Shown here: piece after piece, positions 15,884 through 22,424 of the stretch
Position numbering within the stretch: the stretch's first letter is position 1
Layout: each line of letters begins with the position of its first letter
NCBI GenBank assembly: GCA_028818755.1
Contig: JAPPNF010000156.1
Location: 100,453 to 164,452 of the forward strand
Source: Deltaproteobacteria bacterium
GTDB taxonomy: Bacteria; Desulfobacterota; Binatia; UBA9968; JAJDTQ01
Direction: 5' to 3'
Length of the DNA: 64,000 nucleotides
Program-made: the position numbers and the translations under genes
The notes under the pieces: model-generated
What the model was told of the DNA's origin: nothing
Databases searched by the model: none
The model's input: only the letters and a program-made list of their open reading frames with translations

Positions 15884-16852
15884 CTACCCCTTATCGGAAC
15901 CCTTCCTTCTTTCCTTGAGCCGCGCGGGATGGTTCGGGTCCAGCGGCCTGAAACCGGCTATTGAAAGCCACACCCTCAGCAGATGACGTCCGGTTCCCTC
16001 CGCGGCAAACCCCGTGCGCGAATGCAAGACCACGTGGTTGTTGAAGTACTCGATGTCGCCCGCTTCGAGCTCAAGGGAAACCGCGACCCTGTCGGCCACG
16101 GTGTCGAATACATCAAGGGCGCGGTTCTGCCTCTTCGTCAACTCCGGCACACCTGCCAACTTCTGTGCGCGCCTGATGTGGACCGGGTAGGCGCAGGCGT
16201 TGAAAACGCCGTCTCGCAGGCTCAGGAAAGGTAGCCGGGTCCACGGGTGGCCGTGGTCCGGATGCGGGTGAGTCAGAGCCACGTAAAACGGCTGGGTGAG
16301 CACTTCCAACAAGTCGGGATGCTCAGCCGCGAGGATGTTGTAGACGGTGGCGGCGCTGGCCAGCCGGCGGGTTCCACCCTTACGAGAGGGTTGCACGCAC
16401 AGGAATCCGATGACGTCCTCGGGGTCGGCGTGAAAAGGAAGCGCCCCTGCAGCGCGAAAGCCTAACCGGTCGCGACTCCCCGCCTCCGCCCGTACGTGGG
16501 CCATGGTCACCCCTCCCGGCTGCTCTGCCGGCTCGCCCAACAACCGGCTCAGCGCCCGGAAGGCACGGGCAAGCTCGCGCTCGGTCATGTCTCCCGACGG
16601 CAGACCGCGAAGGATTCGAAAGCCAAGTCCCGATTTCAGCTCCCGCGCCGTCACGGCCATTTGCGAAGCCAGCAGCGGCCGGGCAGGCATCCCATCCAGC
16701 TCGTCTAGATGGTTCTCTCTCAGGGACACGGGCAACTCCGCCAACTCGGTGTCGGTAAAGCGATGGCGCCAGGCCACCGACCGGTCGAGGTCGTGGGGTT
16801 CCCATGCGGCAGGGTCTGCGGTTTCGGGAAAGTGTCTGGTTTCGTTCGCCAT
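15884..16852 (-). CDS. TauD/TfdA-family Fe(II)/2-oxoglutarate dioxygenase
   Basis: A 322-residue dioxygenase of the clavaminate/TauD fold. The iron facial triad is H141-x-D143 (FHADPED) and H277 (VLHSRTGF), with R293 in HLLRVWLS for 2-oxoglutarate. The FNNHVVLHSRT stretch is typical of the branch acting on small carboxylic acids or peptidyl substrates. The ORF track fuses it to HlyD as one 770-residue protein, but the HlyD C-terminus continues in another frame and stops at 16864. An internal ATG at 16852 starts the dioxygenase 11 bp later, so it is a separate, probably translationally coupled gene. Substrate unknown; the neighbours suggest modification of an exported compound. Confidence 0.88.
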   Translation of the reverse strand: MANETRHFPETADPAAWEPHDLDRSVAWRHRFTDTELAELPVSLRENHLDELDGMPARPLLASQMAVTARELKSGLGFRILRGLPSGDMTERELARAFRALSRLLGEPAEQPGGVTMAHVRAEAGSRDRLGFRAAGALPFHADPEDVIGFLCVQPSRKGGTRRLASAATVYNILAAEHPDLLEVLTQPFYVALTHPHPDHGHPWTRLPFLSLRDGVFNACAYPVHIRRAQKLAGVPELTKRQNRALDVFDTVADRVAVSLELEAGDIEYFNNHVVLHSRTGFAAEGTGRHLLRVWLSIAGFRPLDPNHPARLKERRKGSDKG

Positions 16853-16863
16853 GGCCAAGCGCG

Positions 16864-18196
16864 TCACTTCTCGCGGAAAGCATCCTGCCGGTAGCCCCGA
16901 AGGGGCTGGAGGAGGTATTCGATGAGCCGTTGTTTGCCCAGGATGACCGAAGCCTCCGACGACATGCCGGGCAAGAGTTCGATTCGTCGCCCCTCGACCT
17001 CCATGAAGGTCCGATCGAGTTCGATGATGGCTTTGAACACGGGACCGGCCGTTTGGGCGCCTGTTTGCCGGCGCAACGCCGTTCGCGATGTCCGTAAGCG
17101 CCGGCGGTCCGGACTGCGCTCCGGCGTTCACGGCATCATGGCCAACATAGCTCACGGTGCCGTTGATGGCGCCGTAGCGGCGAAAGTCGAAGCTGGTGAC
17201 CTTGAGGATGACTCGTTGGCCGGGCTTCACGAAACCGATGTCGGTGTTGGCAACGAAGGCCTCCACCCTGATCCCGGCGTTGCGAGGTACGATCACCATG
17301 AGCCGCGCGCCGGGCTCCACCATGCCGTTTTCCGTGTGCACGGCGAGGTCTTGGACGACGCCGTCGACAGGGGACAGGAGGGTGTGCCGGGCGCGGTGCT
17401 CTCTGGCCTGCCGGATGTCCTCCCGCAGCACGATCATCCTTTCCCGGACGGCTGCGAGCGCTGAGCGTCGTTGCCGGTAGAACTCGGCGACGGCCCGCTC
17501 CTTTTGCGCTTCGATGGCCTTCAGAGAGGCTTTGGTCTTGGCCAGCTCCGTCCGGCGAAGCGCGATGTTGCCCTCGAGTTCCACCAGCCGCTCCTGCTCT
17601 TCGATCAGGGCGAGGCGGGAACCGTGGTTTCCGTGGAACAGAGTCTCGCGCATGGCGGTCCTCTCCTGCAGGATAGGCAACAACCGGCTTTGCTTGGCAA
17701 GCGCGGCTTCGATGGTGCGGCGTTGCGCCCGTTGTTCCGCCATTGTGCCGTCCAGCTCGTGGAGATGGGCGCGGTGCGCGGCGATCTGATCCGCCATGAG
17801 GGCCTTGTTGATGGAAATGATCTCCGGCGGGGCGCCGGCGGGTGGACGGAAAGGCTGGTCCTTGCGCCAGTTCAGCGTCGCTTCGAGACGTGCCGCCTCC
17901 ACCGACTTGATACCCAGTTCGGCCGTGAGCTTGGAGATCTCCGCATCCACCAGGGTCGTATCGAACTCGATCAGGACGCTGTCCCGCTCAACCAGGCTTC
18001 CTTCCTCGACGGCGATGCGCCTGATCTTGCCCTGCTCGAAGGAACGGATGACCTTGACCTGCCCGGTAGGAACGACGCGTCCCGGCGCCACCGCGGCCAA
18101 CTCCACTTCGGCGAGCGAGGCCCAGGCCAAGGTGGCGATGAGAAAGACGCAGAGAGAAACGAGCAGTATGATATCCGCGTGGCGCGATCTGTTCAT
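16864..18196 (-). CDS. HlyD-family type I secretion membrane-fusion protein, frameshifted
   Basis: One N-terminal membrane helix (about 9-30) is followed by a lipoyl-like half (APGRVVPTGQVKVIRSFEQG), a long coiled coil (about 130-260), and the second barrel half (LLSPVDGVVQDLAVHTENG). This is a periplasmic adaptor of the HlyD/PrsE type. The reading frame then goes wrong. The expected C-terminus (FKAIIELDRTFMEVEG ... LIEYLLQPL) lies in the adjacent frame and ends at 16864, so a one-base shift occurs at about 17,060-17,090. It may be a sequencing error, a decayed gene or, less likely, recoding. No partner ABC transporter or TolC gene is visible. A strong small ORF lies 18 bp upstream. Confidence 0.82.
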
Positions 18197-18802: not shown

Positions 18803-19456
18803 CTAGTGCGCCACCTGGGCCATGGCCATGGTGATGGACTCTTCGATTTCGGCGATGACGCTGCTGACCTCGCGGCCGATCAGGTCCATCACGCGGAGTT
18901 GCTCGATGCGGGGACGGACGCGCTCCATCTCCCGTTCCGAGAATATGTCGCCGAGGATGTCACAGGCGTCCACCAGGCAAACCAGCGCGACGTCCCGCGG
19001 GTCGGGCATGTCGTCGGACAACAGCACGTCCTCCATGCGCAGCTTGACACCCCTTTCCACGCGCCCGTCGATGGTCGGATAGCGGCGGGAGTGGAACACC
19101 CATAGGAACTTCTCGTCCTTGGCCTCGAGGATGCCGCGCTCGATGAGGCTGTCCATGGCCCGCTGGCGGATGTCGGCGGCCTGCTCCCGCGCCAGCAGTT
19201 CCACCCACGCCTTGGTGTTCATCGTCTCGCCGGCATTGGCGATTCGGTCCAGGGCTCCGTCCACCAGCGCGTTGCCGGTAGGCGTCGCGTCGATCACCTG
19301 AAGCTTCTCGGGATCGGTGTCGATGCGGTTGGCGAAGGCCAGATCCATCAGCACGGCGCCCACCATGATGTGCTCGACGGCGCCTCCGCGGATGGGCAGG
19401 AACAGGCCGTCGTCGTCCAGCATCAGCAGCAAGATTTCTTCGGTGAATGTGAGCAT
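18803..19456 (-). CDS. GPP34 (GOLPH3/VPS74-like) family protein, copy A
   Basis: A 217-residue protein matching the GPP34 family: MLTFTEEILLLMLDDDG at the start, LMDLAFANRIDTDPEKL, and the helical tail typical of the fold. Eukaryotic GOLPH3/Vps74 binds phosphatidylinositol-4-phosphate and Golgi glycosyltransferases; the bacterial role is not established. The track start upstream runs through the STAS gene in another frame; the ATG at 19456 is the family start and lies 13 bp after the STAS stop, so the two are probably co-translated. Copy B at 20108-20761 has the same length and roughly 70% identity by eye, without gaps. Confidence 0.85.
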   Translation of the reverse strand: MLTFTEEILLLMLDDDGLFLPIRGGAVEHIMVGAVLMDLAFANRIDTDPEKLQVIDATPTGNALVDGALDRIANAGETMNTKAWVELLAREQAADIRQRAMDSLIERGILEAKDEKFLWVFHSRRYPTIDGRVERGVKLRMEDVLLSDDMPDPRDVALVCLVDACDILGDIFSEREMERVRPRIEQLRVMDLIGREVSSVIAEIEESITMAMAQVAH

Positions 19457-19469
19457 GGCGTCGCCTGAC

Positions 19470-19802
19470 CTATTCCGCCGCGAGCGCGGCATCGCGAGTC
19501 TCGTGGTATTCGAGCATGTTGAGGAACCCGCTGACTTCCATGACCGACTTGCACGAAGGCTGCAGCGCGCATACCGCCAGCTTGCCGCCTTCGTTCTGGC
19601 ACTTTTTCGCACTGACCAGGACCACGCGCAGCCCCGCGCTGCTGATGTACTCCATGTTCTCGCAGTCCAGCAGCAAGCGGTGGTCGCCACGCTCTATGAT
19701 CTCCGAGATCCGCTTCTCGAGCTCCGGGCTGGTGAACCCGTCAACGCGCCCGTTCGGGGCCACCACGACCACCGATCCCCTCGTTTCCTCTTGAATCTCC
19801 AT
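19470..19802 (-). CDS. STAS-domain anti-sigma factor antagonist
   Basis: A 110-residue single STAS domain. VVVAPNGRVDGFTSPELEKR is the N-terminal strand-helix, and DCENMEYISSAGLRVVL holds the serine that partner-switching kinases phosphorylate in SpoIIAA/RsbV proteins. No anti-sigma kinase, phosphatase or sigma factor gene is adjacent; the only close partner is GPP34 copy A, 13 bp downstream. The ATG at 19802 is preferred over the track start at 19865 because the family begins there. An inverted repeat about 40 bp upstream may be its operator. Confidence 0.85.
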   Translation of the reverse strand: MEIQEETRGSVVVVAPNGRVDGFTSPELEKRISEIIERGDHRLLLDCENMEYISSAGLRVVLVSAKKCQNEGGKLAVCALQPSCKSVMEVSGFLNMLEYHETRDAALAAE

Positions 19803-20107
19803 CCGACACCTTTTCTCTGTTGCGTGAAACCTTGTCCGAAAGACGGTAGCAACGGTTACCGTCATGGATTGGCTCTCAACTGAACGCGAACCCCCCTACG
19901 AAGGCCGCCAAAGAATATCACAGTTCCGATACCTGGGCAACAAGCCGACGCGCTCGTCCCTGAAGCGTATGAATCAGCCGGGAGGCCGTGGAAGACGGGG
20001 CTCTCGTGGCCATGAAGGCCGTGGCGAAGAGGTTGGCGGATGGTGCGGATACGCCGGTGTCGAACCGCGAGAACATGCCGGACAGGAGGAATTCACGGGA
20101 CGCGACA
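19803..20107. other. intergenic region between STAS gene and GPP34 copy B
   Basis: About 305 bp with no gene that I can support. It contains the inverted repeat listed next and otherwise shows nothing. Confidence 0.4.
19842..19863. promoter_or_regulatory. inverted repeat upstream of the STAS gene
   Basis: GACGGTA and TACCGTC are separated by 8 bp, 40 bp upstream of the STAS start codon. Candidate operator for the STAS-GPP34 unit. Confidence 0.35.
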
Positions 20108-20761
20108 CTAGTGCGTCAACGGGGCCATGGCCATGGTGATGGACTCTTCGATGTCGGTGACGACGCCGCCCACCTCACGGCCGATGAGATCCATCATTCG
20201 GAGTTGCTTGATGCGGGGACGAACCCGTTCCATCTCGGGTTCCGAGAATATAGCGTCGAGGATACCGCAGGCGTCCAACAGGCCGATCATGGCAACGTCC
20301 CGGGGGTCCGGAGTATCGTCGGACAGCAGTACATCCTTCAACCGCAGCTTGGCCTCGCGTTCGATGCGTTCGTCGATGGTTGGATAGCGCCGGATAGAAC
20401 GAAAGATCCGGAAACTCCCGTCTTTGGCCTCGACAATGCCGCGTTCGATGAGTGTGCTCACGGCCTGTTGGCGGATGTCGGCAGCCTGCTCCCGGGCCAG
20501 CACCTCCATCCACACCTTGGTACTCATGGTCTCCCCGGCATTGGCGATGCGTTCCAGGGTCCTGTCCAGCAGCGAGTTGCCGGTGGGTGTCGGGTCGGTC
20601 ACCATCAGCTTCTCGGGGTCGGTGTCGATGCGGTTGGCGAAGGCCAGGTCCATCAGCACGGCACCGACCAGGATGTACTCCACGGCGCTGCCTCGGACCG
20701 GCCGGTACACACCGTCGTCGTCCAGCATCAACAGCATGGTTTCTTCGGTGAATGTGAGCAT
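20108..20761 (-). CDS. GPP34 (GOLPH3/VPS74-like) family protein, copy B
   Basis: A 217-residue paralogue of copy A, sharing LMDLAFANRIDTDPEKL, RIANAGETM, VLLSDD-PDPRDVA and IEESITMAMA. Differences cluster in the N-terminal 30 residues and around 115-125. Sequence just upstream of its ATG matches the end of the STAS gene upstream of copy A, and the 3' flanks also align. The pair therefore arose by tandem duplication of a STAS-GPP34 unit, with the second STAS gene since lost. Function unknown. Confidence 0.84.
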   Translation of the reverse strand: MLTFTEETMLLMLDDDGVYRPVRGSAVEYILVGAVLMDLAFANRIDTDPEKLMVTDPTPTGNSLLDRTLERIANAGETMSTKVWMEVLAREQAADIRQQAVSTLIERGIVEAKDGSFRIFRSIRRYPTIDERIEREAKLRLKDVLLSDDTPDPRDVAMIGLLDACGILDAIFSEPEMERVRPRIKQLRMMDLIGREVGGVVTDIEESITMAMAPLTH

Positions 20762-20790
20762 GGCGCCTCCTGACCTATTGCGCCGCGACG
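20762..20790 (-). pseudogene. remnant of a duplicated STAS gene 3' end
   Basis: Upstream of GPP34 copy B, GTCGCGGCGCAATAGGTCAG mirrors the last codons, TAG stop and spacer of the intact STAS gene in front of copy A (GCGGCGGAATAGGTCAG). Similarity stops after a few codons, so only the tail of a second STAS copy survives. Confidence 0.5.
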
Positions 20791-20852
20791 GTGACGGTTT
20801 TACAGGAGATTCGTTAACGATTTTCGTGGGTTGCGAAAGAATCCCGCGCCCA

Positions 20853-22424
20853 CTACTTCTTCCCGGGCTCGAACCCGCCCTGTTCGTGGTAGACGACTCT
20901 CTTGTCCTCCTCGAAGGCGCGCACCGATGGAATCGTTCCGCGCAGCCCCAACTCCTTCCAGCGCTCGGCCACCTGGTCGTACATCTCCCGCCTCAGCGTG
21001 GTGCGCTTGGAGAACACCGGCAGGTAGCGGTGCTCCTTGCAGGCGTTGATCAGCGCCTTGGAACCGTACGGCCGCTCTTCCGGCGGGTTCTGGGTGGGAT
21101 CCAGCCAAGTGCTCCAGGTGTTCCGTAGCATGTCGATGTCCTCGATGGGATTGCAGCGGCTGCTCATGGCCCAGATCACCTGGTCCATGTCGGTGGGGTC
21201 GATGTCCTCGTCCACGGCGATGATCCACTTGGTGAAGTAGGCGCCGCCGGGCACCTGGGCGGCCAGCGCCAGGCACTGGGCCGCGTGGCCGGCGTAGCGC
21301 TGTTCCAGGCTGATGACGGTCATGCCGAAGCCGCCGGCCCCGGCCGGATGGGCGTAGACGCCCTGCACGCCCGGTATGCCGAGCTTGTCCAGGTCGTCCC
21401 AGATGCGCGCCGAGCGGATGACGGCAAAGAAGCCGCTCTGTTCGCAGGACGGGTAGTCCGCCATGATGGCATTGGTGAGCACGGGGTTGGAGCGGTAGTG
21501 CACGCGTGTGATGTCCACCAGCGGGCAGCCGGCCTCGGGCCGGCCATAGTACCCGGGGAACTCCCCGAAGGGCCCCTCGGTCTTCACCGAGTTGGGGTGG
21601 ATGACCCCCTCGACCACGAGCTCGGCGTTGGCCGGCAGCAGCAGGTCGCTGGTCTGGGCCCGCACCACCGGGACCGCCTCGCCCTTGATGCCGCCGGCAA
21701 ACTCATACTCCGACACGTTCTTGGGGAAGGTCTGGGAGCCCACCAGCATGAACAGCGGATCGATTCCCCAGGCTGCCGCCACGGGCACGGACTCACCCTT
21801 CTCCCAGTACCGGGTGATGTGGAGCCGGGCGTCCTTTCCCGGAGACAGGTAGAGGCCCACCTGTTGTTTGCCCTGGAGCATCATCCGGTAGGTGCCCACG
21901 TTCAGGTACCCGGAATCCGGGTCGCGAGTGAAAACCGCGTCGGCTGTGCCGGCGTAGCGGCCCCCGTCCAGCGGCCAATGCCTGGGAATGGGGAGCTGCT
22001 CGAGGTCGATGTCGGCTCCTTCGAGCGTGTTCTCGTATACCGGAGCCTCGTTCGCCGGAACCTCGCGCGGGGGAATCCGGTCCTTCATCTTGTCCTTGAG
22101 CCGTCGAATGAGTTCCAGCGTGGGCGTTTCGGGCGGCTCCTCGATGGTCAGGGCGATGCGTTTCGAGCTGGGACCCAGGATGTTCCACAACATCCGGGCG
22201 CCGATCGGGCTGTCCTCGTACCCCTTGGGGTTGTCGAACAGGATAGCCGGGGACGGGTTCTGCTTGGCCACCAGGTAGGTGATGGCGCTCATCTCCTCGT
22301 CGCGGTCCACGGGCTTGTCGATCTGGATCAGTTCGTTGATTCCCTCCGCGCGGTCGAGCCACTCGCGGATATCCTGTATCGGACGGCCTGCCGCCGACGG
22401 CTCCGTCCTGTTTGCCTCAGCCAT
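20853..22424 (-). CDS. UbiD-family prenylated-FMN-dependent (de)carboxylase, copy 1
   Basis: A 523-residue UbiD-type enzyme. EGPFGEFPGYYG contains the conserved acidic residues near the prenylated flavin, and VVEGVIHPN and WAMSSRCNPIEDID are other family blocks. Such enzymes reversibly decarboxylate aromatic, heteroaromatic or unsaturated acids and need prFMN from a UbiX-type prenyltransferase, which is not encoded in the window. The gene lies 127 bp downstream of a class II aldolase on the same strand, suggesting a short catabolic operon. Another UbiD lies at 61.4-63.0 kb. The ATG follows AAGGAAGGTG. Confidence 0.9.
   Translation of the reverse strand: MAEANRTEPSAAGRPIQDIREWLDRAEGINELIQIDKPVDRDEEMSAITYLVAKQNPSPAILFDNPKGYEDSPIGARMLWNILGPSSKRIALTIEEPPETPTLELIRRLKDKMKDRIPPREVPANEAPVYENTLEGADIDLEQLPIPRHWPLDGGRYAGTADAVFTRDPDSGYLNVGTYRMMLQGKQQVGLYLSPGKDARLHITRYWEKGESVPVAAAWGIDPLFMLVGSQTFPKNVSEYEFAGGIKGEAVPVVRAQTSDLLLPANAELVVEGVIHPNSVKTEGPFGEFPGYYGRPEAGCPLVDITRVHYRSNPVLTNAIMADYPSCEQSGFFAVIRSARIWDDLDKLGIPGVQGVYAHPAGAGGFGMTVISLEQRYAGHAAQCLALAAQVPGGAYFTKWIIAVDEDIDPTDMDQVIWAMSSRCNPIEDIDMLRNTWSTWLDPTQNPPEERPYGSKALINACKEHRYLPVFSKRTTLRREMYDQVAERWKELGLRGTIPSVRAFEEDKRVVYHEQGGFEPGKK

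Follow-up and report, generated by a model that had tools for sequence, protein, structure and literature searches.

A conserved STAS-GPP34 gene pair in Binatia and other bacterial lineages suggests a regulated module with a putative function

Why should a bacterial gene for a relative of human GOLPH3 and yeast Vps74 be kept directly behind a gene for a protein of the anti-anti-sigma type? The question is raised by a locus in the window (the whole 64 kb stretch of DNA, from a Binatia bacterium, that was analyzed), in which all genes of relevance are on the minus strand. The gene for a STAS-domain protein of the anti-anti-sigma type, 110 aa in length (19470..19802), is followed by that for the GOLPH3/Vps74-like GPP34-A of 217 aa (18803..19456), and the stretch consisting of the end of the STAS gene and the 13 bp spacer (19457..19483) joins them in what is likely a bicistronic unit. 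On the other side of STAS, and separated from it by ~300 bp, is a 217 aa paralog, GPP34-B (20108..20761), which has no STAS gene of its own, and then a conserved upstream neighbor, a UbiD-family decarboxylase gene (20853..22424; PF01977, 217.8 bits). The two families named in the original prediction are confirmed by Pfam scores far above the cut-offs (gathering scores), with PF05719, matched over its full length by both GPP34 proteins, giving 153.9 bits for GPP34-A and 143.6 bits for GPP34-B against 29.1, and PF01740 giving 67.3 bits for STAS against 22.6. Neither GPP34 reading frame has an internal stop, and the two proteins, which are ~73% identical over their full length in a multiple alignment, align with no more than a single compensated shift of 1 aa, located in the hairpin. 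A separate oddity in the window is a single 770-aa frame (15884-18196, minus strand) comprising HlyD-like and TauD-like domains that are separate in relatives; their junction reads like a frameshift or an assembly error.

The STAS protein scores 83.4 bits with TIGR00377 (cut-off 53.45), and with the model for SpoIIAA equivalogs, TIGR02886, 60.5 bits, which is below the cut-off of 114.75. Its top relatives in the PDB are SpoIIAA (E=2e-13) and anti-sigma F antagonists, and its Ser55 aligns with the serine that is phosphorylated in SpoIIAA (Ser58) and RsbV (Ser56); both this residue and its motif are invariant in 27/27 aligned STAS relatives, so that the phospho-site is intact. The family and the phospho-serine position are thus shared with the SpoIIAA/SpoIIAB and RsbV/RsbW systems. 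In those, however, the STAS gene adjoins that of its own kinase, whereas in the window it adjoins GPP34: no HATPase_c_2 kinase is beside this STAS gene, and no kinase, phosphatase or sigma factor of any sort is beside the STAS-GPP34 pair. A HATPase_c_2 kinase is found elsewhere in the genome (G000), in a cassette on contig C39 with a second STAS and the genome's only SpoIIE phosphatase.

In all nine genomes of the genus, STAS is directly 5′ of GPP34-A on the same strand, the STAS orthologs being 74-100% identical. A GPP34 alignment, whose patterns came from the window's GPP34 subfamily and so favored close relatives, was used to scan a collection of 84,980 species genomes; 80 loci were retained, and in 33 of these STAS is directly 5′ of GPP34 and on the same strand, with a spacer of -7 to 139 bp (median 11 bp). 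Binatia, Nitrospinota, Alpha- and Gammaproteobacteria and Immundisolibacterales are all represented among the 33. Within the class GPP34 is carried by 23 of 148 genomes; each of the nine listed genomes of the window's family has it, as does each of those of another Binatia family (f81), and in a Binatia family other than the window's all 9 genomes have STAS directly 5′ of GPP34. The survey of neighborhoods that had been proposed along with the original prediction thus finds the adjacency conserved well beyond the source organism. Other neighbors of the pairs change between lineages, and no other gene family was seen to cross lineages beside them. For 23 dereplicated pairs, STAS and GPP34 distances are correlated (r=0.77; 0/5000 permutations), which is expected of a unit inherited or moved together, even if the genes simply co-traveled. 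The same GPP34 subfamily has ~13 stand-alone and ~32 membrane-fused genes without STAS (a re-search of the stand-alone loci with two STAS queries found none), so not every GPP34 requires STAS. Fusions of STAS to GPP34 were not seen, and the three annotated regions with actinobacterial and cyanobacterial plasmid GPP34 genes, a sample too small for a conclusion, have no adjacent STAS, the nearest being ~4.6 kb away (Pseudonocardia). Variant arrangements include two tandem STAS genes 5′ of GPP34 in four Binatia loci (L076, L079, L080 and L096), with the second copies that were aligned (L076, L080 and L096) having Gly in place of Ser54 while keeping Ser55, and, in another Binatia family, a STAS gene that is upstream of GPP34 but on the opposite strand (L148, L149).

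The conserved pair suggests a regulated module with a putative function. The reading preferred here, to which a probability of about 0.45 is attached and whose mechanism we infer, is that phosphorylation of STAS switches what GPP34-A binds, with the two genes constituting a self-contained regulatory unit. From the small bicistronic unit there would come a phospho-switch of the SpoIIAA/RsbV type and a GPP34-A that, going by its model, is a soluble protein of GOLPH3 fold. When unphosphorylated, STAS would bind one partner, and phosphorylation of Ser55 would free it. GPP34 is the most likely partner encoded in cis, presumably by physical contact, and if it is the partner, then the timing of GPP34 release would be set by the serine-kinase/phosphatase pair of the cell. 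Freed GPP34 may then engage the membrane or a putative client protein. The obvious candidate source of kinase and phosphatase would be the C39 cassette of HATPase_c_2, STAS and SpoIIE. Its presence elsewhere in the genome is also in keeping with another account, in which the C39 kinase is the target of STAS, here an ordinary anti-anti-sigma factor, and GPP34 is no more than a co-transcribed output, or co-regulated gene, that STAS does not contact. That STAS passes TIGR00377 and resembles SpoIIAA is also as this account would have it, and spacers of 9-11 bp imply co-transcription, not contact. A generic factor would, however, be expected to have its gene next to that of its kinase, like the C39 STAS, and the order of STAS and GPP34 persists in several phyla while all the surroundings change; the account seems rather improbable.

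For the other member of the pair, the AlphaFold model of GPP34-A (pLDDT 86.1) has solely Vps74/GOLPH3 entries as PDB matches at E<=1e-3, which identifies the modeled fold as that of GOLPH3/Vps74. The likeness to human GOLPH3 and yeast Vps74 consists of PF05719, the predicted fold (TM-score 0.68-0.79 by query length) and the beta-hairpin region, whereas identity is 20-24%, the N-terminal extension is absent, the protein is acidic and the gene is paired with STAS. The suggested link to phosphoinositides, which are bound by the eukaryotic proteins, has gained no support. At the positions of W81, R90, R171 and R174, which we take to be the PI4P-contact residues of human GOLPH3, GPP34-A has R23, V32, A94 and R97, and among relatives the first is mostly R/P/Q, the second mostly A/V/T and the third mostly A/P/T/S/D, with the R174 position mostly kept (R in 32/40). 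Lack of conservation at three of the four contacts, together with the strong acidity of GPP34-A (net charge -18), leaves phosphoinositide binding unsupported.

GPP34 also occurs in other settings. G000 has five GPP34 genes, two of which encode fusions to cytochrome P450 (L060:11215-13320, minus strand, on contig C39, 701 aa; L061:9558-11585, plus strand, on contig C32, 675 aa). One of these adjoins a Rieske-type oxygenase gene, and there are GPP34 matches in similarly long frames in the genus, in another Binatia family and in the Nitrospinota group. On contig C43 (L058:6751-10588) a stand-alone GPP34 gene is followed by one for a patatin/NTE-like phospholipase, which has two cNMP-binding domains, and then by one for a thioesterase-domain protein. 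In ~32 related loci (within L099-L145, e.g. L121:3151-6444) GPP34 is fused to a domain with 4-5 TM segments and invariant histidines, and most of these genes are followed by one with ~10 CxxCH motifs (decahaem cytochrome c), beyond which, in the one locus inspected, is a Tll0287-like haem protein; the cluster looks like an inner-membrane electron-transfer operon. A structure model of a membrane fusion was set aside (pLDDT 66.7, with the membrane part mostly <65). From its P450, phospholipase and TM settings, GPP34 is therefore a reused module in these bacteria, and pairing with STAS is one setting. This bears on the suggestion that enzymes with hydrophobic substrates have in GPP34 a generic domain for membrane docking or scaffolding, whose ligand is not PI4P and whose docking is regulated by STAS in some lineages only. 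The two P450 fusions, the ~32 TM fusions beside a decahaem cytochrome, the phospholipase neighbor of the third GPP34 and the retention in GPP34 of a hydrophobic hairpin segment, FLWVF, would all be accommodated, though the strongly acidic charge of GPP34-A (-18) speaks against it, and a GPP34 already fused to membrane segments has no need of a docking domain; the suggestion is considered unlikely.

Copy B poses a question of its own, as the pairing with STAS that is fixed for GPP34-A is not there for GPP34-B. The claim that the STAS stop codon and spacer are repeated 5′ of copy B is real: the 27 bp preceding its ATG (20762..20788, minus strand) are identical at 24/27 positions to those preceding the ATG of GPP34-A (19457-19483), with the next best match to the 27-mer in the whole 64 kb being 20/27. 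Nucleotide similarity of the two units runs from 19483 to 18799 and from 20788 to 20104, and so takes in the last ~14 nt of the STAS gene. The relic comprises the last ~5 STAS codons, the stop and the spacer, and a STAS-tail-like stretch precedes GPP34-B also in three congeners (G001, G005 and G006). A longer relic was sought and rejected: tblastn of STAS against 2.7 kb upstream of GPP34-B gave no hit where one was expected, and in relatives there is no space for it, with only ~8 bp lying between the ubiD stop and the STAS-tail relic in G001 and G005. The relic is so short that loss of a complete second STAS is indistinguishable from a duplication that started at the STAS tail, and it fits either.

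The gene order common to the genus is aldolase, ubiD, STAS, GPP34-A, EutA (the G006 contig ends within ubiD). Four of the nine genomes (G000, G001, G005 and G006) have GPP34-B as an extra copy, inserted after ubiD and so ahead of STAS, and in the other five STAS-A follows ubiD. The four copies form a single clade, whose origin postdates the split of G008; this supports the single duplication originally proposed. Their carriers are divided between two distinct regions of the EutA tree. Between G000 and G001/G005, dS is only 0.09-0.14 for GPP34-B versus 0.45-0.69 for STAS and GPP34-A. A stretch of raised identity in the same comparison, 19750-21100, covers GPP34-B and sequence just upstream of STAS, and points to a recombination tract that lineages within the genus have exchanged. 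The patchiness of GPP34-B could reflect several losses or, more likely because dS is low, passage between lineages by recombination in the flanks. Purifying selection acts on STAS (dN/dS 0.08-0.10) and GPP34-A (0.02-0.29 overall; 0.15-0.17 over distant genome pairs), and the constraint on GPP34-B is weaker (0.23-0.41). In terms of the preferred reading, of a STAS switch acting on GPP34-A, GPP34-B would be a later duplicate without a switch of its own, under weaker purifying selection and recombined within the genus.

The distribution of the pair has a bearing on habitat. By name, 31 of the 80 loci are from the jk18x and p16x MAG series, which we take to be one and the same, and records with SB06xx, MPMI/MPNJ, CO36xxx and OX/OY names presumably also derive from sponges. 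A further 22 of the 80 have RHO, COS or APA codes. The jk18x names are those of a study of Caribbean Ircinia sponges (PMC9531527), and the three codes probably stand for the Rhopaloeides, Coscinoderma and Aplysina of another (PMC8163846). Most of the 80 loci thus appear to be from sponge-symbiont MAGs. None of 197 other genomes sampled from the phylum carries GPP34, and in the Nitrospinota group 7 of 18 do; the identity of GPP34 with Nitrospinota and Alphaproteobacteria copies is 58-61%, compared to 47-53% for IleS in those genomes, a yardstick that is only partly usable as some genomes have a different IleS type (~31% identity). From the sequences this hints at lateral transfer across phyla. 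The same figures would also suit a hitchhiking or selfish arrangement, with the two genes lacking a shared function and moving as a mobile pair from one sponge symbiont to another. Against this are the purifying selection on both genes, their fixed order and short spacing, and the lack of any integrase or transposase noticed beside the pair; the arrangement is considered very unlikely. A broader proposal, which we would call doubtful, is that sponge symbionts of several phyla share laterally transferred GPP34 modules (STAS-switched, P450-fused and membrane/decahaem), with redox and lipid chemistry being scaffolded at the membrane by a regulated GPP34.

Counterparts elsewhere are instructive. 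A 2025 paper on SCO4440 of Streptomyces coelicolor, which states that no prokaryotic GOLPH3-like protein had been described earlier, also deals with a bacterial GPP34 gene beside a conserved partner gene, but there the partner is the D-Ala-D-Ala carboxypeptidase SCO4439, with a role in wall-deficient cells, and no STAS was found in its description (PMC12402492). SypA of Vibrio fischeri is, like the window protein, a STAS-only protein in a Gram-negative and is regulated by a serine kinase, but GPP34 is not involved, its partner being SypE and its output biofilm formation (PMC4517449, PMC10120452). With SypA/SypE already known, the supposed unusualness of a partner-switching regulator in a Gram-negative organism was overstated. 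The GPP34 and STAS families are known, and it is their conserved pairing that appears undescribed; a search that left most subscription papers and preprints outside found no literature linking GPP34 to STAS or to sponge symbionts, and no priority is claimed.

Hardly any role has been assigned to the GOLPH3-like proteins of bacteria, and a conserved partner of known switching chemistry provides a testable handle on the GPP34 fold outside eukaryotes. Surveys of eukaryote-like repeat proteins would overlook such a pair. If the proposal of a regulated membrane scaffold were true, it would be an undescribed prokaryotic role for the fold of a Golgi protein. Since the pair is concentrated in bacteria of different phyla that appear to be sponge symbionts, it is a candidate trait of host association or lifestyle.
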